Source: Lutjanus erythropterus (taxonomy: Eukaryota > Chordata > Actinopteri > Lutjaniformes > Lutjanidae). Taken from it: a stretch of 64,000 nucleotides of DNA. Position 1 is the first letter of the stretch. Every line of letters starts with the position of its first letter. Where the stretch lies: NCBI GenBank assembly GCA_020091685.1, contig CM034607.1, positions 25,479,753 through 25,543,752 on the forward strand. Direction: 5' to 3'. The translations under genes and the position numbers were made by a program. Shown here piece by piece: positions 17,332-59,800 of the stretch. The notes under the pieces are model-generated. The model saw only the letters and a list, made by a program, of their open reading frames with translations. It was not told the origin of the DNA and ran no database searches.

Positions 17332-17575
17332 GTCGTGTCTAGATGGGAACCCCAGATCCACGAAGAATCTCGCGATAGGTAGATTATGATATTAACCCAA
17401 ACCATGCTCTTTTCTCAAACCCAAGCAAAGCCTTTTGTCCTTCAGACTAGGTAGATCTTTATCAGAGAGTTGTCACATAAATCATAATTGCTATGTGCTG
17501 CATACACAATAAATAAACAACAATTTCAAGTCTCGCGAGATTTAGCAAATTCCAGGGTCCCATCTAGACGCGATC
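17332..17575 (-). mobile_element. CGCG-core inverted-repeat element, copy 1
   Basis: The terminal inverted repeats share GTCTAGATGGGA at both ends (17337 on the plus strand; inverted at 17558-17569). Each continues through a looser stretch into a CTCGCGA core (TCTCGCGAT at 17369; exact TCTCGCGAGA at 17531-17540). The orientation is set by matching the single-sided interior motifs of the other copies: CATGGTTTGGG, TATGTGACAAC and GGATCTGGGGTTCC all read on the minus strand here. It is about 244 bp long and non-coding. It resembles a MITE; no transposase family is assigned. Confidence 0.75.
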
Positions 17576-17625
17576 ACTATCTGATCGGCAGGTGGCGCAA
17601 GGCGGAAGTAGTGGGATTAAGGGTG

Positions 17626-17869
17626 ATCATGTGTAGAAGGGAAGCGAAGATTTGCGAAAGTCTCGCGAGGTCTGTACCTGATTTTTCTTCAGTATGTTCC
17701 ATTTTCCCAAATAATCATGTTTTATAATATAACAACACTGTGGTTAAGATATGGGTAGGTTTCCGAACAAAAAAATCCTAGTTAGAATTAGGTGAAGATA
17801 TGGAATGGGTTAAAAGGATTACTCTCGCGATATATTTTGCGGATCTGGGGTTCCGTTCTGAACACGATC
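17626..17869 (+). mobile_element. CGCG-core inverted-repeat element, copy 2
   Basis: This copy has the same layout as copy 1 in the opposite orientation. The left end is GATCATGTGTAGAAGGGAA, then TTTGCGAAAGTCTCGCGAGG at 17651-17670. The interior has ACAACACTGTGGTTAAGAT. The right end is CTCTCGCGATAT followed by GGATCTGGGGTTCC and AACACGATC. The two outermost ends are inverted copies (GATCATGTGT and AACACGATC). It is non-coding and lies between the ncdn and kiaa0319l promoters. Confidence 0.75.
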
Positions 17870-18059
17870 TTAATTTTAAGAGTCTTTAGTTTAATTTAAA
17901 ATGCAGCAACACTCAACACTCGAATTGGACAAATTTTCTGTGCAGCTTGTAGCATAATTTGACTTACTTCATAATACTTCCTATAAATGCCGTTAATTTC
18001 AACCATTGTGCTGCTATCGGGCGCAAAACGCTCCAACCGTTTTACCTACATGCTTTATT

Positions 18060-18246
18060 CTGAAAAAACAGCCACCGGAAGCAGTATTTATCGCTCTGGC
18101 TGCTTTGACAGCAGTCACACAAGCACATCAGCTGTACAACAGAGAGGAACACTGACCTAATTAACTGCACTGAGGACAACAACAGCGACGACACAACACA
18201 TCACAGCGAGCGACCGAAGTGAAAGACAGTGCCGTTTGCTGTAACT
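18060..18246 (+). other. kiaa0319l: Probable kiaa0319l first (5' UTR) exon and promoter
   Basis: A balanced-composition block contains CACCGGAAGC (ETS core) near 18073 and ends in a good donor (GTAACT-GTAAGTCC, GT at 18247-18248). No long open frame or start codon is needed in it. I take it as the non-coding first exon of kiaa0319l, transcribed away from ncdn. The start site and exact 5' limit are not visible; transcript data would settle it. Confidence 0.4.
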
Positions 18247-21105
18247 GTAAGTCCCCGTTCACTTTTCTGCCTCTAATGGTGTCGTGACAGTTACCATTAA
18301 AACGCACGGGATGAATCCGTGTTCTCCAGCACGGTGTGTAGTGAAAGCGAGTGCCCGCAGCTGTTAGCCTCAAGGTGCCTTAAACGGGGGTGATCCCGGA
18401 TTATACAGGTGAAATACCGAATGGTGACCAAACTAAACCTTTCTGTTTCAGGACTCGGACTGAATGTGTATCGTTCAAGCGACACGAAGTACAGTTGGTA
18501 GATGCGAAGTGTCATATTATTGATTCAACTGGCTCTCAGTTGTAATTTAGTGATAGTGCAGCGGACTACGCAGGCTGTAGCTATCGGCCTATATTAAATT
18601 ATCTGACAGCTAAACACATCCTGCCTTCATTAAACCCCGACTGTTGTTTTCAGACTGCCAAGATACATAATGCAAGAGCCCACCATTTTGGATGAAATGT
18701 CTCAGAGATATTAACCCAGCGCGCTTTTACTCCTGCAGTTGATTGACAGACCTTCATTCATGCAGTCAATGATGCATTTATTTAATCAGTCAGTCAATTC
18801 GTACTCTGCCGAGTGGTGGATGCAGCTGCCAATGTTAGGGAGTTAAAACACTAAACAATGGTACCTCTAATAATTTTAAAATAAAAAAAATCACAGAGTA
18901 AACTATATGTATATATTTAACCTAAATGAAAAAAATATCAAATATACACAGAATGCTGCTTATAAAGCTATTAAAATAATCTACATTATTGCTAAAAAGT
19001 TTTCAAACAGTCACATATCAGACAACATATATGCTGATATAAATACAGAACAATATAGCTGTGATAGGCTAATATTTGGCCGATAATATAAGTTGACTAA
19101 TATATCGGTTGGACTCTGGTCTGTAAGATTCAATCAACACTTATTTTCGGAATTTTTTATTTTGTATTATCAATTTGTCATTGATGTGATAAACTAGAAA
19201 CAGTTATAGATCCCAAATAAAGGATGCACAACATGTACTTTTTTCAGCCAATACCAATAACCAATAATTACCTGCGTCTAATAACTGATACCAATAAAGA
19301 AACTGATTGTTTTTCATTTTTGTATTTAAAAAGGAGTTCATGTAACTTGTAGTCTATATACACCTGAGGGTAAGAAGATGTGGTGAGCAAAGATGGAGGA
19401 TTTATTGGGCTTTTATGCCTGTAATGGATAAGACTGCGGAAGTGAGGACAGGAGACGGGGAGAGAGTAGTGGGGGATGATGTGCAGCAAAGGGCTGCAGA
19501 CAGGTGTCAAACCCGCAGCCGCTGCAGATCACTCACTGCCTCAGTTTGTGGGGTGCACGCTCTACCAAGTGAGCTATCCAGCAACCAGATAATTTTATTT
19601 TTATGTTTTGTGGTTTATGTGGTGGAAACACTAACATTTCCATCCACAGAGGCCTCTATATCGACAGAATATGAAAGTTCCTTGTAGTAGTTTAATATGT
19701 ATGTATATTATGCTTCATTTGTGTTTGTTTTAATAGTTATTTCTAATTAGTAAAAATACTGGTGAAAGTTTACTGTCTAAGTGCCCTGAGATTTTGGACA
19801 ATAGATTTTATTGTTAAACTGTAAAATATCCTGCCTCCATTACATATCTTTGTTGTAAGTGTTTGAAGACCACATTTGAGGAATCATTGCAAAAAGTATG
19901 TATTTAGACAAGCATTTTACTGTATATACTCTATGTTATATTCTATTAAAATATATCTGCTATTATATTTATAACAGTTTTTAACTCTTTAATATCAGTA
20001 TTGGCTCCAAAAATCAAGTATAAGCAGGACCTAGTTCTGACTGTTCATTTGTTTTTTTCTGTAAAGTTTATCAAAAAACAAAAATACTTTTTGGCTTTGT
20101 AGTTGTAGTTTTTGTTGCTTAAAAATTCAAATTAATTTATTCCCCCGGGTATTTAAAGCTGCTGTGAGAAGTTTTAACTGGTTATTAAACAGTCACAATT
20201 TAGTTTTCATATTATCTTGTGGTTTTTAAGGTGGAAACGTTACTGCTTTCGTCCACAGGGGCCTCAAAAACCAACAACTGTTCTTGTAGTCACTTTAACA
20301 TGCATCCCTGTTGCAAACCATCAGAGCTTGAAATGATGAAAAGAAACTTTAGAATTATTCATCTTCAGTTTGAAAATGGTAGACATTCAACTCTTTGTCT
20401 TTGTGAGGCTTTAACCAGGCGATGTTTGGTATTAATGACCGGCTTTCATATGTTATATTGATCTGCTAATTAAGTTGTTGACAGTTGAATAAAGTCTTTA
20501 TAGTCCCGCATGGGAAATTTGACTTGCAGCATAGACATCAAAACAGGCTCATCCCTCAGTAAACAGAGTGAAAACCATTAATTACAAAGAGTGATGTCCA
20601 ATAGCTGTAAAACAATAAGTGACAACAATAGCTCAAAGTAAAAGGAGGAAAAGCATGAAATAAAATGCTAAAAGCAGCACAGCAACAAGAAAAGACATAA
20701 TGAAGGTTCATGTCTATTGGCAGCAACAGTGCATGCTGTTTATGCTGTTTCTATGAGACAAAATAGGTGTAGTGAATCAAAAAAGTGACCTAAATGGTGG
20801 TGAAAAATCTGTAAGAAGAGACTAATAACGTGCATTAAGGTTTTACACAGTTGTAAGATTAACCTATAATGGTCTCATTGTGTATTTAGATATTTTTAAC
20901 CTCCTATTATATTCCTATACACAGGGGTTTATGTTATTACATTCATTTAAATATGATCCCAGGATTACAATAGTTGTTGCTGTGAGGATGCTTCTGTAGT
21001 TGTCACAGCAAAATGGGAGGCTCATTATTATTTTGTTTTTGTCTTTTTCAAGCATTCTGCCTGGGAGAGAAATAAACCCAACTTAATTTTCCTTCCATGT
21101 AGCAG
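18247..21105 (+). other. kiaa0319l: kiaa0319l 5' intron, first
   Basis: This AT-rich presumed intron carries a tRNA-derived SINE (listed separately) and TATATCGG-rich decayed repeat sequence at about 19020-19110. No coding exon is supported. Confidence 0.4.
19385..19585 (-). mobile_element. tRNA-derived SINE
   Basis: Read on the minus strand, the element begins with GGATAGCTCACTTGGTAGAG, a polymerase III A box (TAGCTCACTTGG). About 40 bases later comes a B-box-like GGTTTGACACC. The tail reads CTTTGCTGCACATCATCCCC, then CTCTCTCCCC and finally AATAAATCC. This is the standard layout of a widespread fish tRNA-derived SINE family. It is a mobile element, not a functional tRNA gene. Confidence 0.85.
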
Positions 21106-21713
21106 CCAGAAGAAGCTGTGCGTGGGACTTTGTGGTGTCATTAAAGAAAGCTTCACCAACCTGTCTGCCTAGAAGCCAACACAGAGCTGACAATTGTGCT
21201 ATTGACTGCTGAAAGAGAGGAAGACAAGGAAGAAACAGCCAAAAAGAGAGAGAGAGAGAGAGAGCTGGTCCTTTCCTGGGTTTATTTGGTCACAGAGATC
21301 ATTGTTTTGCAGACGCTTCTCAAGGGAGAAGTAGTCATTGAAGGGTCTGTAATGGCTGAGCTGTCATCAGCCCAGGTGACCGGGTGCACCTGAGCGTTAC
21401 TCCTGCTGCACACACTCAAAGTCACCACCAGCCTCTGGGCAATTGGCTGCACAGTTAAAAAGCAAATCTGCTTTATCAAGGAGGAAAAAACGTGACTGAA
21501 GACCTGCAAAGCTTTTGTCTGGATTATTTTTACCTGCAACTTTTTTTTTTTCTGTTTTGTTGGCTTACCTGGGAGAGACAAACGAGCAGGAGGACAAATG
21601 ACGGTTTGTGGATTTGGGACTTACTGAGTTGTTGATTATATCACAGAAGGAGGCTGCTGCTCAAGCGTCTGTTTGCAGGAATGCAGATTCCCATATGGAG
21701 GAAGACCATACAG
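21106..21713 (+). other. kiaa0319l: Probable kiaa0319l 5' UTR exon 2
   Basis: The exon is bounded by a pyrimidine-rich acceptor (TTTTCCTTCCATGTAGCAG) and a donor ACAG-GTTAGTG. It contains no main open frame but four short upstream frames. They start at 21352 (13 residues), 21598 (9 residues), 21681 (MQIPIWRKTIQ, running into the next exon and ending after 14 residues) and 21695 (overlapping, 12 residues across the junction). An (AG)n run lies at 21248-21262. The acceptor could alternatively be used three bases upstream. Confidence 0.5.
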
Positions 21714-23257
21714 GTTAGTGTCGGCGTGTTCATGTGCTGCGAGTACATCTGTGCTGTTCTTTTTCTGTTGTAACACTATGCATTTTAACTGCAGACAAAA
21801 TGATTTGCTATTATGAAATTACAGCCAGGATTAGAAACCTACTTGCCCAAAGTCAATTTTTACTTATGCTATATAAATTGTTTTATTTATTAACAGTTAT
21901 GAAATAAGAACAAAGACTAAAGTAAGTTGTCATGTTGCTCTGGGGCTGCAACGTATAAAATGTATAAAAAAGATGGTGAAAAATGTCCATCCTAGTTTCT
22001 TACATTCTAAATTGATAATTTTAAGTGTCTTGTTTTGTCAGACTGAAACCTGAAGATGCTCAGTTTAATACACTAAAACATATTTTAGTGGCTGAAAACA
22101 TGATTTCCTGCATTTTTGCAAGAAAATCACTTTAACAATTAATCAATTATCAAAATAAATTAATATGTTAATTATTTTGTTATCACTTGCCCAATCAGGC
22201 GAGTGAGTTGCCTGATTTACTTGATTGATTATCAGAATAGTTTACTTTTACTAGCCCAACGTGGTATTTTACTTGCCTTGAGTAATGCTTATTGTTGAGC
22301 CCTTTTCCTGGAGTCATCTGCTGTCTTGAGCTTTTTACTGCAAAGTAGTTCTTCTGCAGAGAGTATCAGCATGTGCATGTGTTAAATACTGACTAATGGA
22401 GATAGAGGAAGATTACTTCACTGTATGGATATATGCTGTAGCATCTAGCTAACATTTGCACAGCACATGTTTTTGGTATATATCCATATTGCCTCATAGT
22501 TATCTCATGGTAAGACGTGGACAAGAGGCATGCTCACGTTTTGAACACAGTGTCCCAGGACCTGTACTGTTCACTCCCCCTCTTTTTTTTCATCCCCTTC
22601 TGCAATAAGAACTTGCATGAGAATTGGAGAGGGGAAAAAAAGTGCAGTGTGGCTCTTTTACGCAGACTGACTCCATGCATTCCTCATCAAATCGTAAGTC
22701 AGCTTTACTGAAGTGTTACTTTGCTGGAAATGGACAGAATTTATCATATTTATCATAGAATTAACATAATGAATGCAACAGTCTGCATCTCGCTCCTTTT
22801 ACTGTGGTTCATTGACATGACTGATGGACTTTATTATCTTAACTAATGACTTTGAAATGGGAAGTTTCCTCATCATGCTTCCTGGAGGAGAGGACATTAA
22901 GCATTAGGAGGTTAACTCAAGGATCTGGATGGCTTCTGACTGACTTAAGTACAGATGAAACACTATGAAAATATATCATGATTATAGTGAGCAAAATTCT
23001 CACACTTATCAGTGTTGTCTCTGAAACACGCTGAAATAATTTCACCAGGTTTTATATCGAAAACCTCTTAGCAGTTTGAAATGGTTTCATGTGCTTTGCA
23101 AATGTTTTCACTGATGCAAAACAAACCCACACTGTTGCTCTGCCTGCATCTGGGAGACTGTAACTTAAGTTGATGCTGCACGGTATTTACTGTCAGTTTT
23201 TCAAAGCTTAGTAATCAAACACAGTTTTAATGATAACTAAAATTTTAAATGATAACA

Positions 23258-23605
23258 AGTAGAACTGCAACAATTAATCGATTATTAATTAACTTTTAGA
23301 ATAATTGCAAACTATTTTGATAACTGATAAATTGTAAAAAAAAAAAAAATCCAAATTTTCTGACGTCAGTTTCTCAAATGTGAATATTTTCAGGTTTCTT
23401 TAGTCCTCTATGACAGTAAACTGAATATCTTTTGTTTTGGGGCAAAACAAGACATTTTAGGATGTCATATTGGGCTTTGGGAAACACTGATCAACATTTT
23501 TTACCATTTGCTGACATTTTATGGATGAAACAACTTATCGATTATCCGAGAAAATTATCAACAGATTAATCGATGATGAAAATAATCAGTTAGTTGCAGG
23601 CCTGA
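23258..23605. repeat. Dispersed CGATTAAT/ATTATC fish repeat, best copy
   Basis: The block runs from GAACTGCAACAATTAATCGATT to ACAGATTAATCGATGATG, with inner landmarks GTTTCTCAAATGTGAATATTTTC, GACAGTAAACTGAATATC and GGGAAACACTGATCAACATT (each partly quoted). Related copies lie near 22040-22170, 24035-24320, 37043-37215, 49985-50270 and 58383-58510. It is a very abundant non-coding family in fish, from memory. Confidence 0.75.
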
Positions 23606-25299
23606 TAATACTAATCATGGAAAGTTACTGTAGTTTCTCATGAAACTGGTAATCGTTTAATCCCTAGTGGAATATGTGAACCATTCTCCTGCGTGCAACG
23701 CAACAGTCTGCATCTTTTTCTTTCTTGTGACTCTCTGACATGACTCTGACTTTTATTATTGTTTATAAAAATGAGAAACATCCTCATCATGCTCTCTGCA
23801 CTAAGGACTTTAAGTATGAGGAAGTCAACTCAAGGATCTGGATGTCTTTAGCCTTCCATTGCCAGAGTAATTCACAAATGTGAATCCAGATTAGATTAGC
23901 CTGTGACCTGAAAACCAGATGAACCTGCTGAGTTCATGTTTTGTTCTGTCAGATAATTCACATTTGCAAACTAGCCTGAGGATGCCAGGTTACCTGTGTC
24001 TGTGTCATGAACATAATTTAAAGTAACTTTGTATCAAGGGCTGCAAATAACGATTAATCTATTGATTATTTTCTCAACGAATTGATTCGTTTGATCTGTA
24101 AAAGGGCTGAAAATGGTGCAAAATGTCAACCACCTCAAATGTCTTATTGCGTTCACAACCTACTGTCATCATGGACTAAAGAAACCAGAAATATTCACAT
24201 TTTAGAAACTGGAATCAAAAAAATTTGACTTTTTTTCTTAAAAACATGCTCAAACTGATTTAATTGGTAATCAAAATAATAGCAGATTTATTTCATAATT
24301 GATTAATTGCTTCAGCTCTATTTGTGTCCCACGTAGGACTGACCCAAGACTGTTTCTTTTTCACAGAGTAACTTACAACAAGTGTCACACAAAACTCAAA
24401 CAAAAGAAATGGAGGATCAGTGAGGGATGCAGATGTATGATACAGTTTCTGTGTTGAGTGATTGCTGTGGTGGTTGCACAGGAGGGAGATAAGAGGTAGA
24501 AATATTTTTTTTTCCATACAGCAACCCTCCAAAGTGTAATACCCCCAGATATTACTCATTTTCACATTCATTATGAACATACAGTAAGCGTGATAGATTG
24601 CAATGCTACAGGACTAGACATGAATAACAGATAGATTGAATAGTTCAGATTGTTTATGTTGCATGACGTGTAGAGCTATGTGTTTGCTAAGATAGACTGA
24701 TTGGACACCTGTCTTAGAAGTATTGTCCCTTTCTCACTTCCGTGTTGCTTCAGCTAATAGTTAAAAGGAGGGCGCTCACAGGATTGTGAGTCATGTTACT
24801 GTAAACAGGATATTATCAGAATTGTTGCATAATGAAACAGACTCAAACAGGGATATTTCTTTCTATGTTATAATTACAACAGAAGGCAGTAGCCTGGATT
24901 CTTGTGCAATGGGAAGGAGTGGAGTGTTTGCAACAGACCACTAGACTAAATTATCATTTAGTTTTTCCTTCTTTGTTTTTGATGATATAGTATGATACAC
25001 TGTTTGTCATTAACATCTTTTAAAGTTAAGATCAAATATGTCCCACACATGTAAATGTAAAGAGAAACTCACTGAAGTTTTGCTCTCTCTGCAGAGTTAT
25101 CTCCAGTTAAATGTTATTTGTATAAAATTTAGGTATCTAATCAATATGTTAAAGTTGATTCAAAATCTATGGAGTGCTTTTCTAAAGAGCTGAAGCACTC
25201 TAGTCTGTCAGTGATCAAGGTAGAGAAGGAGGACAGGCCTGAATAATTTATATTAGGGGAGCGATATGACTGAAATCACGATCAAAATATTAATAAGAA

Positions 25300-26010
25300 C
25301 ATTTGGTAACATTTCCTGTGAAGGATGTGTCGGTAATGCATCACATTTATAAGACATTATACTGCATTGACAAGGCTTTATAAACCTCTTTATACATGTT
25401 TATAATCCCACATGACAACTTATAACCAGGTTTATGGAGTACTGTAAGTGTTGGACATAATGTATACAAGTCCAGTATCCATAATGCTTTATAACTCCAT
25501 GCTAAAGTGACAACAGAGTTTGACAGAAGAATTTTAGTCCTGGGTTATACAGCACATTATAACGAGTATGTCTTGTAAATATAAATAATACGCTATAGCA
25601 TGAGTTTGTTAGCTTTAAGGAAAGTGACAGCACTGTATAAGGTTTTTAGTAATTGACATTATTCCATTTCAGAAACTATACACATTAAGTCCACCACTTA
25701 TTAACCGTATTGTAAGTTGTCATGTGTGGTTAGAAACATAAAGATGGTTATAAAGCCCTATAAATGCGTTATAATGACTCATGAACGTGCTTGTGATGAA
25801 TTGTAGGCTTTCATACAACGTGTTAAAATATTTTTATTAATATTTGTTATCATTTTGGCATAAGTGTATAAGGCATTATAATTGTTGAAATTGTAATACA
25901 TCAAGTTCACCAGTCACAATATTTTATAAAGCCTCATATATGAATTATAATGTGTTATGTATGTGCTTATAATACATTATTGACATGACCATTATAGAGA
26001 ATGCAAGTTT
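25300..26010. repeat. TTATAA-rich decayed repeat
   Basis: The block is built from recurring TTATAA-centred phrases such as ACATTATA, CTTTATAA, CCCTATAAATGCGTTATAATG and GTTATGTATGTGCTTATAAT in both orientations. This suggests a decayed fold-back element or an old tandem array. No coding content is seen. Confidence 0.55.
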
Positions 26011-26271
26011 GAATATTTTTCTAATTGGGGGGAAAAAAAAAGTTTTGTTCATTTCTCATTACATTTTGTATGGAATAATTAATTTTGGCATCAGAATTAT
26101 GTAACATAAAAACAAAATACGATCATATTCCATATAATAAATGTATAATAATAAATATCATATTCCAGTTCTACTACGAGTCAGTATACACGGATACTTA
26201 ATTACCACTCAGACCTGTTTGTCCACATCCATGCATTAAATCATTTTCTCTCTTTTTCTGTCACTCTCCAG

Positions 26272-26452: not shown

Positions 26453-26651
26453 GTAAGCATGACGTGTTTTGCAGCTTGTTGTTTTTGTTTAGTGTGCGTG
26501 CTTGACTTCATGCAGGCAGGTGTCTGAGTAAACAATCTATAGTTTCAGCTGGTTTGTTGGATTGACAGTTATTATTCCTGTGGGAGAGTTGTAAGGCAGA
26601 CCAGACGGTAACGGCCGATGGGAGATGTCTGAAAACTGAACGTCAGCCTGC

Positions 26652-27057: not shown

Positions 27058-27070
27058 CAAAGTATCCATC

Positions 27071-27271: not shown

Positions 27272-27279
27272 GATAGTTT

Positions 27280-49200: not shown

Positions 49201-51476
49201 CTCACTTTTGCCAGACACCTCAGGCAGGTCATGGGGTCTGATTTTTCTTTGACCTCTTGACCTCTGTTGCCTTAGATAATGGTCCCATAATGAAAGATGA
49301 GATTCACAGGTCAACTCTTTAAGATTTTTGAGCTGTCACTGCAAGTTATATCTTAACGTCTCCTTTTTTTTTTCTTGCCTCTGTTGTGAAACCTGTGCAC
49401 CAGATTTGGGCAGTATCAAGGTATTACAGTATACCAGTGTGTTTAGAAATTCCAAAGGTATTATTTTCAAAACCATCTAAAATAACAGACACTCCTCTTT
49501 CTATTGAACTGCACTCTGCCTTCTGCCTTAAAACAGGTCATATGACATCAACAATGTGTTACAACAATTATGATTTATAATAAGGGCAAAGGAAAACACG
49601 TCAATAATACTGCAGACATATTTTAACTAAAAACAGGAATTATAGCCAACATTAGTGATTTGATCAGGATATTTTCATGGATTCAGAAAAACTATGAAAT
49701 GGTTTTCTCATTAGTCATTACAGCAGCAGCTTGTTGTCCATGTTTCCAGTATGTTATTAATTATTCAAGACAATTAAGCAGTGCTCCAAAATACACCATA
49801 CGTGTCACCGAGTCAGGTCTTCTCAGTGTTTTCACCTTCATCTCACTGCACACAGGCAGCCTGTTTTAGCTTGTTTAATTTTCAGTACACACTAGACGGG
49901 TTTTGAGATTTGGGACAACTGCTTGTAATTTGTGATTGTCCTGAATTTTCCAGGAAATCTGGTAACCCTACTGGCACGCGATCTCTGTTCAACCCACTGA
50001 TGTTTCTATATCAAATGTCCAAAGAAATTTTGAAAAAAGCTTAAACAATTATGAGCCCAACATGACGTCTTCAGATGTCCAAAACCCAAAACTCTTCATT
50101 TGCTATTACAAATGACAAAGAAAAGCAGCAAATCCTCACATTTTTAGAGGTTGGAACAAGCAAACTCTTTTCATTTTTGTTTGAAAAATGACAATTAATC
50201 AACAAAATAGTTGGCAACTAATTCTCTTTTGATTGAGTATTTTATTAACTGACTAATCATTGCAGCTCTGTGTGTCAGTGTCAGCTAAGTGTCATTGAGT
50301 CCTGCAGCAAGAATCTGTGGAAGAAGGACGTTTATTTCCTATCTATTCATTATTCTATTGGTATTTAAACCCAGCAAGACTTGTCAGAGTAGGCTAACTG
50401 CTTATTAGCCTCACAAAATTGTAGGTAAGACAATGTCATACATGCTATAATGACTCGTCAGGAAAATAAGAAAAAATAGACACCACCCTAGCCTGCTGTA
50501 CACTGTTATCTTCTTTTAATGCACCTATTGTAGGTTTATTTTCTATAATATGCTGATGGTCTGTTGTGGCTCCTTAGTTCTCTCAGTCTGTGTTCAATAA
50601 GATAAGACACCATTTCATCTGCTGCACTCTCTGCCTCTCTTCTTCCTCAGTCTGCCAGCTGAACTGCTCGAGTCACGGGGAGTGCGACTCGTTCACACGC
50701 CGCTGCGTCTGCCACCCGTTCTGGATGGAAAATTTCATCAGAGCTCAGCTGGGAGATGCAGAGAGCAACTGTGGTGAGCTGAGATGAATCATAATTAAAT
50801 ATTTTGTCGGTCATTTAAGGCGTCAGATGTGGCAACATATAATGACATGCTTTGCTTTTTTGTCTCACTAAATATTTAATTTTCAGAGTGGAGTGTACTG
50901 TATGTGACCATTGCATCCTTTATGATTGTGGTTGCTATAGCAACAGTTGTCTGGGGGATGGTGTGTTGCTGTAACAGGTGAGTACACATACAGTATAAAC
51001 ATCATTTCAATTAAAGTATGTTCTTGTTTAACTATGTGAACACCAACTGATGATATGTGATGTGTTTTTATTTCCTGACAGGCGTAAGAGTAAAGTGCGC
51101 AGAAGCAAAAGCAGATATAAAATACTAGAAGCTGATGAGCAGGACAGTCTGGAGCTACAGCCACCTAGAGCAGGTAACACACTCTGGTCCTTTTAAATAA
51201 TGGGCTGAATAAAATATATGCTTAGTGCAAGTTTGACAGCATCATTTTGACATTATACTGTCTCTTTCTCGCCCACCAGCCCGCCTGAAGCCCGTCCCCG
51301 CTCCCACCTCCTCTGCCCTCATGCACTCGGACTCTGACCTGGACAGTGATGACGGGCAGGGCGGGGTCCCGTGGACGGAGCAGGAGCGCGGGCATCTCCT
51401 GCGGCCCCAGAACGGCTCCCTGAGGAACGGCCAGGGGCCGGTCAGGGGCAAAAAGCAAAGAGAAGAGCTGCTATAG
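28000..51476 (+). CDS. kiaa0319l: KIAA0319-like protein (PKD-domain type I membrane protein; AAV receptor orthologue), complete
   Basis: The mammalian protein cycles between the cell surface and the trans-Golgi and is the entry receptor of adeno-associated virus (AAVR). Coding exons: 28000-28093, 31624-31892, 33787-34030, 37303-37401, 38439-38536, 38684-38771, 40793-40885, 40990-41122, 41778-41883, 42743-42865, 42972-43095, 45721-45853, 46070-46218, 47052-47203, 47336-47474, 48393-48552, 48845-48987, 50651-50773, 50887-50977, 51082-51173, 51280-51476. They total 2850 nt, 949 residues, with every join in frame. Order of parts: signal peptide (residues 1-31), eight-cysteine MANSC-like domain (32-121), Ser/Thr-rich linker, five PKD domains (about 204-682), Cys-rich membrane-proximal region, one membrane segment (about 826-850) and a cytoplasmic tail. 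Human residue length is about 1050; most of the shortfall is in the linker. Synteny with ncdn excludes the KIAA0319 paralogue. Confidence 0.96.
28094..31623 (+). other. kiaa0319l: kiaa0319l intron 1
   Basis: This 3.5-kb intron holds a dispersed repeat copy at about 31290-31520 (GAACATTAAATATCTTGTCT family) and a short (TG)n run near 28448. Nothing else with structure is seen. Open frames such as 28996-29232 and 30810-31037 lack any family resemblance and splice support. Confidence 0.6.
31290..31520. repeat. Dispersed fish repeat (TTAAATATCTTGTCTTTG family), copy 2
   Basis: It matches copy 1 (14050-14270) through ATTCAGAATGAG, ATATTTACAAAAA, GTTTGAACATTAAATATCTT and ends CAACATCCCAACATTATTGG. 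Non-coding. Confidence 0.7.
33178..33643. mobile_element. Fold-back MITE family B, full copy
   Basis: The ends AAAGGGACAGC and GCTGTCCCTTTAAA are inverted copies. Inside each end lies a second inverted pair: TTATCCATCTAGAT with GAGATATCAGC on the left, and the complement (CAATCTAGATGGATAAATA with ATATCTCCAA) on the right. The middle is unpaired. It is non-coding, in kiaa0319l intron 2. Confidence 0.8.
34205..35550. mobile_element. Fold-back MITE family A, interrupted by family B
   Basis: The left part (34205-34370) carries GTATGAGGTATG, GATGGTGGTCTGCAGGCCTCC and TGGAGAAGCTGCAGG. The right part (34891-35550) carries the arms TTTCACCTCTTTACTTTG, AAACCAACCAAACTCC, GAGGCAGCGGTAGATGAAC and AAAGTAAAGTGGTGAAAATA, and ends AACTATCCCTTTAAG. 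The interruption is a family B element, so A was present before B inserted. Open frames in this span are spurious. Confidence 0.75.
34371..34890. mobile_element. Fold-back MITE family B nested inside family A
   Basis: The ends are inverted copies: GGGACATGTATTTATCCATC on the left; AAATGCATAAATTGAATAAAACATGTATTT (partly quoted) on the right. They enclose GAGTTTTGGAGATACAGGC and its complement near 34820. The host family A sequence resumes immediately at about 34891 (AAATGTACGTATTTG). Confidence 0.7.
35551..37302 (+). other. kiaa0319l: kiaa0319l intron 3, distal part
   Basis: AT-rich intron with a CGATTAGT-family repeat at about 37043-37215 and nothing else that I can support. The neighbouring exon 4 begins at 37303. 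Confidence 0.6.
37303..38771 (+). CDS. kiaa0319l: kiaa0319l exons 4-6: PKD domain 1
   Basis: The three exons encode about residues 203-297: [20 protein letters not shown], then [20 protein letters not shown], then [10 protein letters not shown] and [11 protein letters not shown]. The order and wording follow human KIAA0319L closely. In human AAVR, PKD1 and PKD2 are the domains bound by AAV capsids. Intron 4 holds an AT/GT microsatellite. Confidence 0.93.
37930..38042. repeat. (AT)n/(GT)n interrupted microsatellite
   Basis: About 110 bp of alternating purine-pyrimidine, mostly TATATA with periodic GTATAT and ACGT interruptions, in kiaa0319l intron 4. The hydrophobic IYIYIY open frames over it are artefacts. 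Confidence 0.95.
38772..40792 (+). other. kiaa0319l: kiaa0319l intron 6
   Basis: A 2.0-kb AT-rich intron. I see no exon, mobile element end or repeat array in it, apart from scattered poly-A/T runs. Confidence 0.55.
40793..42865 (+). CDS. kiaa0319l: kiaa0319l exons 7-10: PKD domain 2 and first part of PKD domain 3
   Basis: Exons 7-9 encode PKD2: [20 protein letters not shown], then [20 protein letters not shown], then [20 protein letters not shown]. Exons 9-10 begin PKD3: [20 protein letters not shown] and [21 protein letters not shown]2 carries the principal AAV-binding surface in the mammalian protein. Introns 8 and 9 are each almost wholly a fold-back MITE. Confidence 0.93.
41228..41737. 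mobile_element. Fold-back MITE family B filling intron 8
   Basis: The left arm has AATCCATCTAGATTGTCTTG and GTTTTGGAGACATCAGCTGT. The right arm has GACATCTCTACAGCCGATAT and CAAAACAATCTAGATGAATA, the inverted partners. It occupies about 510 of the 655 bp of intron 8 and ends about 40 bases before exon 9. Confidence 0.75.
41918..42670. mobile_element. Fold-back MITE family A filling intron 9
   Basis: The left end has TTTAAAGGGATAGTCGGG and GATTGTATGAGGTACC. The right end has AAGTACCTCATACAACCAC and CTGTTTAAAC, in inverted orientation. The arms pair through most of the element (AGCCAAATATTGCTCTC with GAGAGAGCCTTATTTGGCTT; TTTTCACCACTTTACC with GGTAAAGTGGTGAAAA). It takes up about 750 of the 859 bp of intron 9. 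Confidence 0.8.
42972..47474 (+). CDS. kiaa0319l: kiaa0319l exons 11-15: end of PKD 3, PKD domains 4 and 5
   Basis: Exon 11 ends PKD3 ([20 protein letters not shown]). Exons 12-13 encode PKD4 ([47 protein letters not shown]). Exons 14-15 encode PKD5 ([57 protein letters not shown]). Each repeat keeps the WxRDD/YxWS-type core and final TLTVTD strand. Exon 13's donor is followed within about 10 bases by a long TG repeat. Confidence 0.93.
44005..44240. repeat. Dispersed fish repeat (same family as 14050), inverted copy 3
   Basis: Landmarks are AACGGTTGGGATTCTGTT, ACATAAAAACAGAAGGCAATG, TTGTAAATC and CAACAAGTTTCAAAAAGCTG. These are the reverse-orientation counterparts of the family. Non-coding. 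Confidence 0.7.
44400..44710. mobile_element. hAT-type element remnant
   Basis: It starts with CAGAGGTCCCCAACAGGCGG, a characteristic hAT terminal sequence, followed by GGACCGCGGTCCGAG and, near 44680, GGTGGGCCGCCATAAATAAA. No transposase frame remains. The right end is not clear. Confidence 0.55.
46228..46268. repeat. (TG)n microsatellite just after the exon 13 donor
   Basis: About 20 TG units begin roughly 10 bases downstream of the GTTAGG donor of kiaa0319l exon 13. TG repeats bind CELF/TDP-43-type splicing factors in other genes, so length changes could affect exon 13 use. Confidence 0.9.
47475..48392 (+). other. kiaa0319l: kiaa0319l intron 15
   Basis: A 0.9-kb intron without an identified element. 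It ends in a long pyrimidine-rich stretch (48240-48390, including a C10 run) before the exon 16 acceptor. Confidence 0.55.
48393..51476 (+). CDS. kiaa0319l: kiaa0319l exons 16-21: membrane-proximal region, membrane span, cytoplasmic tail
   Basis: Exon 16 has [20 protein letters not shown]. Exons 17-18 end in a six-cysteine EGF-like segment ([27 protein letters not shown]). Exon 19 encodes the membrane span ([20 protein letters not shown]) followed by CCCNRR. Exon 20 carries [14 protein letters not shown], with a YxxPhi signal (YKIL) typical of endocytic sorting. Exon 21 has the acidic [10 protein letters not shown] and ends KKQREELL before TAG. Endocytosis and retrograde traffic of human AAVR depend on its tail. 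Confidence 0.94.
48988..50650 (+). other. kiaa0319l: kiaa0319l intron 17
   Basis: A 1.7-kb intron holding a decayed CGATTAAT-family repeat (about 49985-50270). No exon is supported. Confidence 0.55.
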
Positions 51477-52784
51477 CAAGGGAGGAGGGGGGAGCTCGCC
51501 GCTGCCCTCACACACATACGCACCTCCTCCTCCTCCAGCTGTCACACCCCCTCTGTTCCTCACTCTTCCTGTTTCTCTTCTGTTGTTCTTTCTACACAAA
51601 AACCTCACACCTCTTATCCATGAAGACAAAACTGGATTAAGGATGAGGATGAGAGGAAAAACATGCTGGAAACATGTTGTCCCACTGTCACAGAAAAAAA
51701 CACCACTGAACTGAAATTTCCCTGCTCCCACGCTGAGCCATTATGGAGGAAAAAAAACTATAATTTTGCTGAGAACTAGGGGTAAATGGTATAAAAATGT
51801 AACATACACCCTTATAATTTAACACAGAGACCTGAAGAATGTACTGTTACCCCTCTGACTGATGGCAGATGTTGGTTAGAGACTGAGAGAACGTAGCCTG
51901 AGTGACACTTGACTTTCTGGATTTAAAAAAACAAAAAACAAAACAAAAAAAAAACAACCAAGCTTCAATGACACGAAAACCAGCCACTTGACACGCTCAC
52001 ACCTTGCCTCTTGTAGACACGCATGTATGCACACAAAGACGTCGTATTCACACTGTTCCAGGTCAAACTGATGCTACCAAACACTGCCATGTTGAAAACC
52101 AATGGTTAATTCTGCTCTGATGATTCAACGCAACCAAAACAGAGCTACCAACAGCAATGGACCCTTCTCCCAAAAAACAAAAAACAAAAAACATACAAAA
52201 AAATGTGCATGAAGAGTGGCAGATTGTATTTCTGGTACAATCTGATACCGGAATGATCGCCTGCATGTTTGTATGTTGGGTGTATGTGTGGATTTTTTTC
52301 TGGCTGCTGAGCCAAAAGATGTTTCTTCAGAGCAGTTTGTATGTTTTTACGTCTGTTATTATTAACCCACGGAAGAGTCACATTGTTGTCGGTGAATATG
52401 GCGGTCAGAGGCAGAGATCTTTGGAAAAAAAAAAAAAAACGTCTTGCTTTTATCTTTTAGTCTGAAGGCTTCCCTGTGGATTAAATCGCTGTAACACACA
52501 CTGGAATACACAACGTTAATGAGTTTAGTCTCATCGGAGACGATAATGAGGGGTTCACAACACAACAAATGGGAACGACTGGACACTGCTTCCTCACCTC
52601 AATGTTCATTAATGTAATGATTGCTTGAACCATGAAAACCACTGAGTTTGTGTTTTGTTTCTGTTATTTTTTTACAAACACCTATTAGGCTGTGATTAGA
52701 TGTCGATGCACTTTGACTTCATGTCAATCAGCTTCGGTCTCATTTTGTCTCTTGTTGGTTGAAAAGGGAGGTCTCTTGACAGTT

Positions 52785-53420
52785 AACGAGGCAGTTTTGA
52801 CTATTCAGACTGGGGTTGTATGAGGTATTTATTCCTAATCAGTGTATTAACTCCAGTAGATGGTGGTCAACATGCCACCAGTTTGGAGAAGCAGCAGGAC
52901 TACTGGTGTAGGAAGCTGAGCAGTGTAAGTGTATGCCAAATTTAGAACATTTTCATGATCATACTTTGCCATCTGAAAGCTGGGAAACTGACTTTACATG
53001 AGCCAAATATTGTTCTCTCCAACCCAACCAAACTCCATTAACAAAAATAGTAGTTTTCCCTCGCAGAACATGGGAGTTGTTGGTCTACCGCTGCCTCAAT
53101 CTGTTAGTTTGTTTGTGTTACTGTGTGACTTTGGTGTTTTAAAAGGTTAGCTTGGATTCACTAAAGTCACTCAATAACAAAAACTAACTAACAGATTGAG
53201 GCAGCGGTAGACCAGCAGCTCTTGTGCTCTGCAAGGTAAAATTATTGTTTTTGTCAATGGAGTTTGGTTAATCAGGTAAGAGTGATATCTGGCTTATATA
53301 ATGGCGGTTACCTGTCAGAAAAGCCAGTCTGATGGCAAGGTAATATTCTAAATATAGCATACACTTAAACTAAGAACTTCATACAACCCTAGTTCAAATA
53401 ATCTGAACTCTGCCTTTAAA
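52785..53420. mobile_element. Fold-back MITE family A, copy in the kiaa0319l 3' region
   Basis: The left part has GGGTTGTATGAGGTATTTA and the right part ACTTCATACAACCCTAG, with arms AGCCAAATATTGTTCTC and GAGTGATATCTGGCTTATAT in inverted order. The centre includes GTGTTTTAAAAGGTTAGC and GAGGCAGCGGTAGACC. If transcribed, it would form a long hairpin. Confidence 0.75.
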
Positions 53421-54340
53421 GATGGAAAGTTCAGCCATAAACACCGGACCTGCATTCGAAAAAATACTTGATTTCCTTGACTTTAGAGATAAAAGGAAAG
53501 GATATATTTACATGAAGCTAAAGTCCAGAAGCACCTCAGTAATTGTTACATATCTGTAGGCTTGAATGAAAACAATGGCGTCAGCTTAATGTTTGACAAA
53601 GTGTGACTTTTTAATCCTGTGAGGTAATTATACTGCTTCCTCTGTGCAGTTTCTGCGACCAGTTATATAATTTGTTTGGCTCCAAACTTGTCTTACTTGC
53701 CACTTGGCAAAAGTACCACAAAAACAAAAGGGAAAACTGAGTGACATGATCAAGAAAAACATTAGACTTCAAAACAGACATCACTTAACTTCCATTAGAT
53801 ATGAAATTGAGTTGTGTGACGTGAAACTGTGTTAAATCCTGAAAACAAATTATTTCTTCCCACAAACAGGATAATAGTCTGTTCTTATTCTATTTACAGA
53901 AAACTTGTTTAATCTGAGGGATGTTTTGCCATAAATGCAAAAGGTACAGGACGCAGAGGAAGGCTCAAAGAAAAACAGCAGAAGCTTCATCTGCTTCTTC
54001 GGCGTATCAGCAGTGGTGACGGGTGTTTCTGAGGGAGAACTTTAACCAAATGACTCTTCCCTGCAGCAAATCAGTGCGTTTGCATGTGAAAGTGGCCTGT
54101 AAGTCACCTTTTCTTTGGTTGTTGAATGTTAAAAGGGTACACCATTGAGACACTTCAGCGTGTACTCTGTGTGAAATAAGCAATCGTTTTTTAAAAAAAT
54201 TGAGAAAAATGTCTGTTTCTCACGGTGAAGTCATCTCATGCTCATGTCAGTTCTGCTGCTGCACTAGTTTGGTCTCAAAGCACCCAGAGGAGACTTGCTG
54301 AATTTATCTGGCCATCTTTTGCCAACTAATGTGAGGCAAT

Positions 54341-54660
54341 TTAAAGGGACATTTCACCCCGGCATGAAAAAAGTACGTATTTTTCCTCTGGTCTGTAGTG
54401 ATATTTATCCATCTAGTTTGTTTTGGTGTGAGTTCTTTTTACCATAGAAAGAAAACAATTCCAATATGAAACTGCTCACAACAAGGCCTCTCAGTTGAGT
54501 ACCTGAGCCTACCTAGTTCCATTTTACTTGAGAGAAGGCAGACAACTCTACAGCTGATATCTCCAAAACTTGGCAAGTCTCACCAAAACAATCTAGATGG
54601 ATAAATAGCACTACAGGCTAGAGGAATAATATTTATTTTGTGGTGAAGTGTTCCTTTAAA
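54341..54660. mobile_element. Fold-back MITE family B, short intact copy
   Basis: The ends TTTAAAGGGACATTTCACC and GGTGAAGTGTTCCTTTAAA are inverted copies and give the clearest view of the family B termini. Inside are TTATCCATCTAG and its inverted partner CTAGATGGATAAATA. Confidence 0.85.
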
Positions 54661-55102
54661 ATCAAGTGCACCCAAGTGCCAACTCTGTAAAATGCCATCT
54701 TTTAAATACTAATTATAATTCTTCTTGTGTTTTTTAGCACATAATATGGCTTTTGGAGTAATTGCAACGATTTGATGTTCACTCTTATTGATCTGTGTAT
54801 TTTTTTTCCCCCAAAATTAGCAGTGAAAAAGAAAAAACTTTTTAAGGATAATTCTGCAAAATTCAGCCTTTTTTTCCTGTTACATTTACCAGTCACTTTT
54901 GGGATTTATAGAAGTGAATTGACCTCGACTCTGATGGAGTCCACTGTGAAGGCGGACAAAGAAAATGGGGAGCAACTGTAAAATGAAGGGAGTTTAATTT
55001 AAAACGTTTTAGATGAGATTTTAAGTGAAGGATTTACAGCCCTTCTCTTTCTCCTGTGTGAGCAGACCTGATGCAACTGGATAATCTGTAAATTATAATA
55101 AA

Positions 55103-56690
55103 ATGTTTCAGTTTGTTCTTGAATTATTTTTTTTTTTTTTGAGAGATGTGTGCTTGTTTCTCGCTCTGTTCTGAGTAAAAACTTTGATTAAAGCCTGAGG
55201 CAGAAACTGGAGTTTTCTTTCCCCATTTTGTCCTGACTTTGCACTTTGTCCCAGCTTGCACACGTCAAATGAGAGGAGCATGTGGTGTGACACTAAAATT
55301 TAAATGTCATGGGACTTCACCAAAGCCTTTATAAGGTCCTCTAACATTTGAAGCTGGAATGAATTCATCAATTAGCTATCTATTAAATTCATCAGCAACC
55401 AAAAGGTCAGAATTCTCTGATTCCAGCTTCTTAAATGTGAATATTTTCTGCTTTTCTTTAAAGTTTGTCCACGCCTGGTTTAGATATTACAAACAGTCCA
55501 TGTTCCCTCACAAACAGCGGTGAGCACAAGTTAAACCTGCCTCTTTGAAGTCCTGGAGCAGCTCTAATCCTCCATCAGTCCAGAACAGGATAAATATGAC
55601 CGTTGTAAGATAAAACTGTGCGAGTCACTTTGAATTCTCTGATGAGATGATGTCAGATTTCAGGATCATCATCATGCAGCTTTATATTACAGAGTTCAGT
55701 CATGGGCTGCTAAAAAGACACACGTCCCATCGGTGTTGTCTTGTGGCCCAACTGGCTCACGATTGTCACGTTTTGATCCGCAGAGAGAGAAGAAAATATA
55801 AAACAGCTCCAGGTCACTCTGTGGTTTTAGAGGTTCAATAAAACAGAGTAAATGGTGGTGGGATATGCATGAAGGAAACTAATTTTTATTCTCATTTGGC
55901 AAAACACACTGAATACAATTTGTATTAATTCAAAGACAAATAAATTTTAACTTTTAAGGGTGATCCAAGACCGACTGTATGTGAAAGTAAGCTGTGTTTT
56001 ACAACAGTATCTGCGTTTGGAAAAATCTCTCTTTAGCCTTAGATATCCCATTTCTATGAATTGATGATGTGTATTTTCTAACATAATTTAGATTATAAAT
56101 ACATAATTTATTGTCCCAAAACAATGACAAGGTATCTCAAATAACAACTTACTTACTTACTATAAGATAATGAGTTACTATTGTAAAATAATGAGTTAGT
56201 GTCCTAAAATAATGAGAAACTTTTTCAGGATAATGACTTAGATACTAACTCATTGTTCTGTGACAGTAAGTCATTATTTAACTCATTATTTTGTGTATTT
56301 TTATAATGACTTTTTCCATCAGCCTGTTATGTACATACTTTGAACATTATGTTCAGTGAGTTTAACTCCAGTATCCTCACACTACAGGCCAGGACACCCA
56401 GCAAACATGTTGGAACCCGGCAGAGCACCAGAAACATGCAACACTGAGATGCTCCTACTGTCTTCATGCAAACTGCACATGCCTGCAGATGGATGCACAG
56501 TGTTTGACTTTTCTCTCAGAGGCATTAAGCCGAGTATTCATTAATAAAGGAACATTAATGTCATGGTGACATCTGTTTACTGTGGTGCCTTCAGATATAT
56601 CACAAGAGGAAGGAAATCAGTTGTTTCGTCTTTTTTCCCTTATATTGCTGCCCTCTGCCTCTCACACTCCTTATATGGGAAAGGAATTAG
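55103..56690. other. Intergenic region between kiaa0319l and cap1
   Basis: AT-rich. At 56110-56310 the phrases ATAATGAGTTA and TAACTCATTAT recur in both orientations, a decayed fold-back or palindromic repeat. No gene is supported. Confidence 0.6.
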
Positions 56691-56846
56691 TTGCGCGAAC
56701 AAGGGCGGAAACGCGGCGCGGTGACAGCTGGGTAAATTCACCACATACAGGAAGAAAAAGACGAAGCCCAGTGAGTCTGTCCTGCAAAACCTGCACACTC
56801 CCACGGCGATATAAAACACCAAATCACTGCTTGACCAGTTTAGCAG
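56690..56846 (+). other. cap1: Probable cap1 5' UTR exon and CpG-rich promoter
   Basis: CpG-rich sequence (GCGCGAACAAGGGCGG, ACGCGGCGCGG) at about 56692-56721 is followed by a block ending in a strong donor, TTTAGCAG-GTAAGC. No start codon for a long frame is present. It is the only good promoter-plus-donor candidate upstream of the cap1 start codon exon. The 5' limit is approximate. Confidence 0.5.
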
Positions 56847-59800
56847 GTAAGCGGCATGCAGTTGTTGCGATGTGTGATTTGTAGCACATTTAACGGTTCA
56901 GCTCAAGCGTTAAAATGAAGCCAAAGAGACGAACAGTGTGTCGCCGCGGCATCGAATCATTCAGAAATTATTTATTGAAATCGGTGTGATGCTAACACAC
57001 CCGGCTAGCCGAGGCTGCTAGCTAGACTGTTAGCCGCAAAATCTGACGCTTGACCGTTAACTAACACAGATCTTTAAATGTGTTCAATCTCCCGTTAATT
57101 TCAGACTTCTTCTCTCTTTGGTGAGACGCTGAAATGTAGGAAGTTCAGTTTTTTTCCTGACATTAGCTAATAGAGGGAGGGGTGTGTAAGAGAGGAAAAA
57201 AAGATCCAGGAAATGCCGATACGGCTCCATGCTAGAAGGTAACCCTAGTTTTGTAGACTTCTCGCGAGATTTGTACGCCTTGTTTATTTAATGAGCACAC
57301 TGTACAAACTAATTACATGTAATTATGTGACAACACTATGATTAAGGTTTTCTTACGAATAGAGGCCGAAATCACTTGATTAGGGTAAGAGAAATCATGG
57401 TTTGGGCGTAAACCATAACTCTCGCGACATCTTGTTCTAGTCTGGGGTTCTCCTCAAGAGCTTGCAGCTGCTACTCAAACAACAGGGAGGGGAAAATAAC
57501 AGACATAAATACTTCTCATAAATATTTGCAGCGTTGTCAAACAGAAATATCTATGAGAAGTTGGCGTAGATTATCTTAAGATAGCTTTCATTATCGCCGC
57601 TGGTGTTCTGACATACTTTGTATCCCTGCAGACTGGTTCCTCATCAATGAAGCGACCGTCTAGAACAAGTTAATGTAATCTAGGGAAACCTGCTCACTCT
57701 GGGTAAAACTCAAGCTGTCAAAATGTTTGCTCGGTCTCATAATTAATCGAGTCTTAACTTGTAAGTAACGGTTTGTGGGCTGGGGGAGACTAAACTTGCT
57801 GGGGACTCCGAATTTTGCACAACACCCACCGGTTCTGCTCGCTAGCTTTAGCCACGCTAGCATCTCTCGGCCGTCTGATTGAAACCCCGGTGATCGCATT
57901 AAGATCAGCGGCTTGAACTTGATTTGTTGGAACCTTTAGCCCACCGCAGGAGGACTGCTAGGAAGGTCAGAGCTCACCGCCATTGCTTTGGCCTACTTCT
58001 GCCTCTGCGACAAAGCAGAGATGATTTGAGTTGTTTTGTTTTGTCCAATGCAAAATAGACAGAAAAGGCAACACGCACACTGAGCTGGAGCCTGCCGTCT
58101 TTATGTCTGAACGTCTCGCCCCCAGGCAAAAACACTGACACAGGCCTAACCTACTTCTCTGGCCCTGCATGCTGGTAGTGCTCAATGCAGAGGATTTCTG
58201 CCACATGTCCAGAAAAGTAGGTCTATGAGTACAGTTACAGTTTGCAGGCTTGCACATACTGGAGGAAGACCAGCAGGACCTATAAAGCAGAAAAAAAGCC
58301 ACGTCTAAATGCATATTTCTATAGAGTAGGGGCTCTTGATGTCTGGAAGGATATTATTTATGCAACTCCAAACTACTTTGGATAGGGCTGCAATAATGAT
58401 TATTTTCATTATCGATTAATTTGCCAATTATTTTTACGATTAATCATGTGGTGTACAAATTGTCCAAAAAATGTGAAAAGTGCTCATCACAATTTCCCAG
58501 AACCCAAAGAGACTTCTACAAATTGCTTATTTTCTGCAACTGACTCTTCAGAACTCAGACTCTTCCCAGCCTTGCAAACTGTTGGCTTGTTGGGTTGTTT
58601 ACATGTACAGAGCCTAAGGTAAACAGGCAACAGGACGTGTGTCACAAATTGCAGTAAAAACACAAATTGAGACGCGTGAGCTGCATACACGTCTAAAGAA
58701 TACTCCTAAAACCTGCATATTGCATTTACTATATGTCCTACTCAGAAAATTGTCTTTTTATGTAATTTGTTAACAAACGGAGTATTATCAGGCTTATCCT
58801 TTCACTATAAAGGTCCCATCTTATGCAAATTAACACATTTTCTTAAATTCTAGCTAAAACAGCTGCTCTAGGCTCTGATTCTTCCACTTGTGACGACGTG
58901 ATTAAGCTCCAGTTTTGGCCTTTTATAGAGCTTTAAGGAAAATGTTATGAAAGGCACGATTCCCTGGCTTGAGTCATAGCTATATCTGCCCTCATGTCTG
59001 TGGAAAGTTGTTTCTCCTTCCTTGACAGTGAAGTTTCCTTTATGGTCAGCGCTTTGCTTGAACATACGTGCTCACTTTACTGTAGTGCACTTTAGGAAAG
59101 CATTTAAACTGATGTTGCAGGAAATCCAGTAAGCTCAAATATGTCCCACTGAGGGATTTGCAATTTGGCATATCCGGAAGAAGTTTCCAATGTTGTTTAT
59201 AAACAGTACGGTCGGTCATCTACAGTTCGTTTTACGAGCAGCTACACATTTAGATGCTTGTTTTTTTGGTGACTATTACTGAACACACACCTTTAAGGGG
59301 CCACTCCCTTCCTGTGTTGCTTGCTGATGAGTCATCTCTTAGACCAGGACGTGGTCTCAGTTGAACTCTGGTATCTGGCTGCAGGTGTATCATAAATGCT
59401 GCTTAACATTCAGGCATTTAGGTCAAGGATAGTAGGGGTGAGTCCTGCTATGATCTAATTTTGTCTCCACGCCTTGTGGAGAAATTAATCTACAACTCTG
59501 TCTGAATGAGTGAGTGATGCAGAAACAGGGAAGTTGAGATATTTTGAATGGAACTACTATGTCTGCTGTAGGAATTAAACTCTGTTAGCCACCACGAGTC
59601 TCTCAAAATGAGTTGTCTTTTGTTTTTAAATGATACACTAGTATTAGAAATATTGATTCTGAATATTTAAATGCTTTCATTACTCATTTTCTACACTGCC
59701 CACATAGCTTGCCTTCTTTGATTATGGTCAGAAAGAAAGAAATTAAGTTAGATGTTATTGTGCTTAACACACAATACTATGCATACATCAATCTGGATTA

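Follow-up and report, generated by a model that had tools for sequence, protein, structure and literature searches.

The occurrence of one motif at hundreds of promoters that are otherwise unrelated is commonly explained by slow selection, and a 64-kb stretch of contig CM034607.1 from the fish Lutjanus erythropterus (referred to here as the window) raises the question of whether a transposon can provide a more direct mechanism, with two motifs delivered per insertion. Three blocks of about 240 bp in the window carry the motif TCTCGCGAGA or close variants of it; the ten letters are identical to the BANP motif, which is also called the CGCG element. An earlier reading of the window, made from its letters alone (the sequence-only reading), had described the blocks as a three-copy family resembling miniature inverted-repeat transposable elements (MITEs), placed near promoters and possibly spreading promoter sequence. 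Judged by their sequence features, the blocks are old copies of one non-coding, non-autonomous cut-and-paste DNA transposon, a MITE, which on a sample of this one genome is the main carrier of exact TCTCGCGAGA. We consider it probable that this old MITE dispersed paired BANP sites and that the copies residing in promoters have retained theirs, probably by selection.

The three copies lie at 17331-17575 (copy 1, minus strand), 17625-17869 (copy 2, plus strand) and 57224-57466 (copy 3, plus strand, both ends degraded). These boundaries revise those first given and are extrapolated from nhmmer alignments with a 245-bp family consensus (positions 3-244 at E 8e-32, positions 3-244 at E 3e-37 and positions 8-238 at E 2e-33, respectively). 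Copies 1 and 2 are arranged head-to-head, with 53 bp separating their aligned ends. Sequence reading and alignment bear out the three blocks, their order of motifs, their orientation and the two CTCGCGAG cores in each. In copy 1 the left core is a perfect TCTCGCGAGA (17531-17540) and the right core is TCTCGCGATA when read on the plus strand (17368-17377); copy 2 has TCTCGCGAGG on the left (17661-17670) and TCTCGCGATA on the right (17823-17832); and copy 3 has a perfect TCTCGCGAGA on the left (57260-57269) and TCTCGCGACA on the right (57420-57429). The four cores other than the two perfect ones retain TCTCGCGA in one reading direction. All six occurrences of TCGCGA in the 64 kb, and both occurrences of TCTCGCGAGA, are located inside the three copies. 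The middle block reads CATGGTTTGGG in copies 1 and 3 and ATATGGAATGGG in copy 2.

The blocks are 61% identical to each other in pairwise alignments of 231-244 columns, and any single copy used as an nhmmer query recovers the other two at E 1e-12 to 3e-16, with no further match in the window below E 0.05. Masking nine letters at every one of the six cores, in queries as well as targets, gave E-values of 9e-6 to 2e-11. Because these values remain significant, the check proposed with the sequence-only reading, namely that alignment outside the cores might prove no better than chance, leaves the homology standing, and the relatedness claimed for the sequence around the cores is upheld. A composite pattern of four blocks has three matches in the window and none in 100 dinucleotide shuffles.

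The family consensus is 245 bp long and has two perfect TCTCGCGAGA, in agreement with the earlier claim of two cores per insertion. Its ends start with GG (GGTCGTGTCTAG...) and form terminal inverted repeats in which the outermost 22 bp are identical (22/22) and the pairing continues imperfectly to about 45 bp; TCTCGCGAGA is located 37-47 bp in from each end, and the inverted-repeat likeness reaches there with small gaps. Inverted ends had been noticed earlier in copy 1; the observation stands, yet the ends are a feature of the whole family and not of copy 1 alone. Target duplications were sought in the 41 of 71 aligned rows (the sample is described below) that have both ends, with shuffled flank partners as the control. 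At 9 bp the mean flank match was 0.534, against 0.268 (standard deviation 0.023) for shuffled partners, and at 4-8 and 10-12 bp it fell within the shuffle range. Copy by copy, the 9-bp duplication is exact in 4/41, matches at 8 or 9 letters in 7/41 and matches at 7 or more in 14/41. The target sites have no motif other than an A+T-rich centre. It is from the inverted ends and the 9-bp target duplication that transposition of the family is concluded, and these features, together with short, dispersed copies that are too short to code for a transposase, are those of a MITE, as had been proposed.

The family is far larger than the three copies first supposed. Searches of the host assembly (937.6 Mb, 444 contigs) returned 140 candidates with copy 1, 439 with copy 2 and 5,043 first-look candidates with the consensus; 40 were scored in each case, those from the consensus being 81-89% identical. 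The idea of a three-copy family was thus abandoned, since the searches give many dispersed copies. The family apparently has thousands of copies in the genome, a figure that relies on the unscored candidates beyond the 40 and on motif counts. With the scored best copies only 81-89% identical, there is no young copy among the best, and the family looks large and old. The sample that was fetched comprises 40 loci of 6 kb, 20 of 0.6 kb and seven of about 3.2 kb in addition to the window; after seven duplicate loci had been dropped (L003, L009, L050-L054), 71 rows remained, the three window copies included. Three of these rows are fragments, namely the two halves of one short copy (L039) and a partner cut by the fetch (L061), the latter being an empty row in the later alignment. 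The rows differ from the consensus by 18% on average. Shortened forms of the MITE, with both ends and little of the middle, were also seen (L070, L071, L082, L083 and L084, as well as L039:197-327).

An internal 15-mer, GGTTTGGGTTAAAAT, occurs exactly 1,056 times genome-wide (control, 1), with the core in place in only 107 of these occurrences; it was therefore given up as a copy counter, and another abundant repeat probably shares this middle block of the MITE. The composite pattern has no match in the viral_contigs collection, and the lone match in genome_contigs, in a Prosthecobacter bin, agrees in the pattern blocks only, has a profile score of 10.9 and was taken as chance. A literature search found no published description of the family, which may be listed in the repeat libraries Repbase, Dfam and FishTEDB that lay outside that search.

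How much of the genome's supply of the motif does such a family account for? Exact TCTCGCGAGA occurs 2,938 times genome-wide, and its reversed (not complemented) control 438 times. Two exact TCTCGCGAGA spaced 135-160 bp apart form 563 pairs, compared with 0 for the control, so that two-core copies could account for as many as 1,126 of the 2,938 sites. A closer look was taken at the first 50 listed sites, all on contig 1 and spread over 15 Mb, which is a sample and not a genome-wide census. Here, 28 sites form 14 pairs and 22 are single. For 13 of the 14 pairs the family profile matches 80 letters of one strand, with scores of 18-63 where the best among 420 shuffled controls is 9.4; the remaining pair has no profile match in its 80 letters and was assigned by its spacing and by visual inspection of the other strand. 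Twenty of the 22 single sites were fetched. Ten of these are complete or almost complete copies in which one core is exact (218-245 letters aligned), five are shortened versions with the ends kept and most of the middle missing, and five belong to one different, young repeat with a mean column identity of 92%. Family scores of the singles are 42-210, the best of 400 controls with the core kept and the flanks shuffled being 12.0; the scores of the other repeat, 12.9-14.6, are just over these controls. As for the two single sites that were not fetched, 12822781 is a family copy by other searches, and 13284011 falls outside the 49 sites examined. Among those 49, 44 are in the MITE family, five in the other repeat and none elsewhere.

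Two observations accompany this sample. The short versions on contig 1 have common flanks in three of five cases, and the other two share another set of flanks, which implies that they sit in, and multiplied with, DNA that is itself repeated. The second repeat (L072-L075 and L081 on contig 1, 430 bp each) has TCTCGCGAGA followed by CATCTCGCGGGACGCGATTTCACGTGATC and then by a part resembling a first exon with a splice donor; this may be the promoter of a transposon that was active recently and makes independent use of the motif.

The fate of the cores was followed through their CpGs. Flank CpG content was expressed as the observed/expected ratio (o/e) over up to 300 bp on each side, and other CpGs were defined as cells at consensus CpGs that read CG, TG, CA or TA. 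Across the 71 rows, where flank o/e is below 0.45, core CpGs are intact at 4/35 and other CpGs at 9/65; between 0.45 and 0.65 the counts are 49/71 and 59/115; and at 0.65 or above they are 159/166 and 166/279. With the three fragments and the window copies excluded, the remaining 65 rows give, in the same order, 4/33 vs 8/62, 49/67 vs 58/111 and 147/154 vs 159/261. As most of the sample was found by way of copies 1 and 2, the comparison was also restricted to CpGs present in the query, and in flanks of at least 0.60 the core CpGs are then intact at 158/165 and the others at 71/99 (p 6e-8).

Patterns blind to CpG state, which accept CpG, TpG, CpA or TpA at the core, are less biased than the fetched sample. 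With the first of them (100 listed of 107), both, one or none of the right-core CpGs are present in 50, 18 and 32 copies, and independence predicts 35, 48 and 17. With the second (first 100 listed of 268, contigs 1-7), the core pair is intact in 56 copies and a neighbouring CGCG of the same repeat in 34, the discordant cases being 28 with the core only and six with the neighbour only (p 2e-4). Two kinds of copy can thus be told apart, CpG-intact and CpG-decayed, and those of the fetched sample that are intact have flanks rich in CpG and resembling promoters. Among the copies checked, the survival of the motif mainly in promoter-like DNA suggests that some insertions have been taken into use.

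The surroundings of the copies are CpG-rich on a local scale. The window as a whole has an o/e of 0.43, and over 45 loci the flanks have 0.69 in the nearest 300 bp and 0.32-0.35 at distances above 1.5 kb. Values of at least 0.65 are found in 22/40 near flanks, 0/80 far ends and 13/106 window bins; all three window copies lie in bins of this kind, the copies' own CpGs being counted in them. The excess is often confined to one side (left-right correlation 0.03; above 0.6 on both sides at 14 loci, on one at 20 and on neither at 11), as would be expected if the copies had landed inside pre-existing islands. That the element itself made the islands is thought unlikely in view of this one-sidedness, and also by the argument, not a computed result, that about 18% divergence leaves little time for CpG gain.

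Copies 1 and 2 sit in a CpG-rich stretch at 16801-18600 (o/e 0.87-0.93 in 600-bp bins, copies included), and copy 3 in another at 56401-57600 (o/e 0.74-0.84, likewise with the copy included). The coding start of NCDN (neurochondrin) is on the minus strand at 16429-16788, with its start codon at about 16788; this segment matches Pfam PF05536 at E 5e-4 and 19.1 bits, below the cut-off of 22, and a downstream open reading frame (ORF) within 14262-15383 matches the same family at E 1e-45. A KIAA0319-type gene, which from its neighbours we take to be KIAA0319L, lies on the plus strand, divergent from NCDN, and these orientations place copies 1 and 2 between divergent genes. Copy 3 is upstream of CAP1, also on the plus strand, whose N-terminus was recognised at about 63.07 kb (Pfam CAP_N-CM); the copy is located about 5.6 kb before the first recognised CAP1 coding exon. 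The gene order of the window is presumably TFAP2E-like, NCDN, KIAA0319L, CAP1, the TFAP2E-like label being our assumption for ORF 2027-2560, which has no Pfam match; TFAP2E, NCDN and KIAA0319L are neighbours in human 1p34 as well. Transcription start sites would be expected near the window copies.

For the fetched loci, 20 ORFs were picked by eye from 19 loci, a check that covers copies only and has no random-site control. Seven of the 20 have a Pfam match and represent coding exons within about 3 kb of copies: RRM+SPOC, RBM15-like (L038); FEZ (L025); FHA, FOXK-like (L012); F-box (L007); BTB (L036); aminotransferase V (L015); and a kinase beside a CpG-poor copy (L039). Putative labels of FASTKD2/MDH1B, CFAP298, GSTZ1 and KAT7 were assigned to further ORFs from their translations; Pfam gave no match for those ORFs. 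The earlier claim of a location near promoters is supported for the window copies by gene order and CpG content, and for the fetched loci by their CpG-rich flanks; it is qualified by a sample that leans towards core-bearing copies and by the CpG-blind patterns, in which loss of core CpGs is frequent (both remain in 50/100 and 56/100).

Copies also adjoin one another more often than even placement predicts. Close pairs have gaps of 53 bp (window 17331-17869), 34 bp (L026), 27 bp (L049) and 39 bp (L061, one partner cut by the fetch), and two more are found at C13:25432483-25432966 and C13:33930196-33930711 with gaps of 40 and 34 bp. Their orientation is mixed, with three head-to-head, one tail-to-tail and two direct. 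By our own estimate, roughly 100 copies should yield about 0.1 close pairs if some 6,000 copies were evenly spread, and about 0.8 if 5% of the genome contained half of them.

These observations can be brought together in one sequence of events. The family transposed with 9-bp target duplications, dispersed in large numbers and is, on the one-genome sample, the main carrier of exact TCTCGCGAGA. BANP may have bound the motif in the element and kept the element open and unmethylated, and this state may have favoured insertion into or beside open promoters and earlier copies. Where a copy came to lie in an unmethylated promoter, two BANP sites would have joined that promoter and been kept there by selection or by constant occupancy; elsewhere methylation would have erased the sites, leaving the copies split into the CpG-intact ones, in CpG-rich flanks within the fetched sample, and the CpG-decayed ones. 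The pattern of CpG retention indicates that it is probably selection that keeps the cores in promoter-resident copies. The factor envisaged here differs from that of the sequence-only reading, which had named ZBTB33-type factors; the passages of the literature drawn on give BANP as the protein that binds the unmethylated motif and activates (PMC9363121, PMC10474299).

Several points weigh against this account or limit it. Most of the fetched copies were recovered through their similarity to copies 1 and 2, both of which have all cores, so that core retention and the CpG-rich flanks of the sample are inflated. Among query-matched CpGs in flanks below 0.60, those of the core are again kept somewhat more than the others (42/95 vs 19/62). 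Letters of the core outside its CpGs are conserved at 101/110 in CpG-poor and 462/494 in CpG-rich flanks, exceeding the other columns in both (0.843 and 0.818, respectively), and near-equal conservation of this kind points to some search bias and not to promoter-specific selection. Both right-core CpGs are lost in 32/100 and 27/100 of the CpG-blind copies. A second, unrelated-looking repeat also has TCTCGCGAGA. No target duplication is visible at window copies 1 and 2, and the ends of copy 3 are degraded. Insertion preference and survival in unmethylated DNA are not separable on these data, and all family counts and CpG comparisons come from one genome.

One rival is passive retention, in which copies in unmethylated DNA escape CpG decay without any use by the host. 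Core CpG state does track flank CpG, cores fare no better than other CpGs in CpG-poor flanks (4/35 and 9/65), and the non-CpG core letters barely separate the CpG-poor from the CpG-rich group. In the same CpG-rich copies, however, the cores are kept at 159/166 and the other CpGs at 166/279; with the query-matched counts (158/165 vs 71/99) and the CpG-blind discordance (28 vs 6) added, we regard it as unlikely. Another possibility is that the cores serve the transposon, as binding sites of its transposase or of a needed host factor, and that promoter location reflects insertion bias only. The cores are symmetrically placed, each forming the inner portion of a terminal inverted repeat, and the close pairs at 27-53 bp suggest insertion into open or occupied sites. 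This idea is compatible with the preferred account as an original function of the cores; as a full explanation it is very improbable, for it leaves the preservation of cores long after transposition ended unexplained, the transposase domain PF10551 has no match in the genome, and the best of seven PF12762 places has no family ends within 2.2 kb. There is next to no chance that the blocks reflect convergence or an architecture common to CpG promoters and are no mobile element, although the window copies all fall in CpG-rich bins and the motif is an established promoter element of vertebrates: the homology extends over 240 bp with the cores masked, the ends are inverted, copies occur in CpG-poor places too, and the 9-bp target duplications of the family refute it. 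Chance likeness was rejected on the masked-core homology, the shuffles and the target duplications.

Retention of dispersed BANP sites in promoters, then, is the explanation we prefer, and the sequence-only interpretation as a whole is partly supported: dispersal of the motif is observed, and the copies may drive transcription. A bolder proposal, which we put forward tentatively and somewhat doubt, is that most of the BANP target map of this fish goes back to one old MITE, which jumped preferentially into open promoters and, by means of its paired BANP motifs, opened its own sites, with later copies then landing next to earlier ones. Hundreds of genes or more would in this way have come under an activator of cell-cycle and housekeeping functions, their promoters being rewired abruptly in a single transposon burst. 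Since copies lie in both CpG-poor and CpG-rich places, the family serves as a natural experiment showing which BANP sites persist, whether BANP guards DNA against methylation and whether a transposon can give rise to promoters, and the 563 exact pairs together with the decay of related copies outside CpG-rich DNA make these questions testable.

Among known transposons, the GG ends and the 9-bp target duplication would fit Merlin or Mutator. Merlin elements are described as having inverted repeats that start with GG, a length of 24-462 bp and an 8- or 9-bp target duplication, and the MITE resembles them in its ends, its 9-bp duplication and its length (PMC8101967). The Merlin transposase domain PF12762 (DDE_Tnp_IS1595) has seven genome matches over the cut-off among eight candidates scored, six of them without an internal stop and one of the seven at C17:6508655-6509011. 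These matches are possible helpers or relatives of the MITE, and their presence leans the superfamily assignment towards Merlin. The difference is that no genome match is tied to the family at the one of seven places read: in 2.2 kb around the best match, the closest likeness to the family ends is 12/22 letters, and there is no notable family match. Mutator-like elements (MULEs) have a 9-bp target duplication, longish inverted repeats and, in plants, a preference for gene starts; the MITE likewise has the first two. The host genome differs in having no match to the MULE transposase domain PF10551 among three candidates scored.

As a promoter motif, the element's core can be compared with what is known of BANP. 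In human reporters one BANP motif drives bidirectional transcription, more motifs give stronger activity and methylation stops it (PMC6192621), and in zebrafish Banp reportedly activates genes that have the motif close to their starts and is held to open chromatin there (PMC9363121). By analogy, a MITE with two motifs would be predicted to function as a small promoter, sensitive to methylation, where it is unmethylated. Promoters with CGCG elements share with the copies the same ten letters and CpG-rich, promoter-like DNA, also between divergent genes (PMC6192621). The motif is described in the CGCG-element papers as a conserved part of promoters, and the string 'transpos' is absent from their main text (PMC6192621, PMC9363121). 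Here, in contrast, 49/49 of the examined motifs are inside repeats, 44 of them in one family, often paired about 160 bp apart. The closest parallel from repeats, the human THE1 elements, are long terminal repeats, whereas the fish element is a DNA transposon with a pair of promoter motifs in its ends. THE1 elements are nevertheless alike in being a repeat family that bears a CG-containing factor motif: they are reported to carry BANP/ZBTB33 motifs whose activity depends on methylation, and have been studied as enhancers (PMC10474299).

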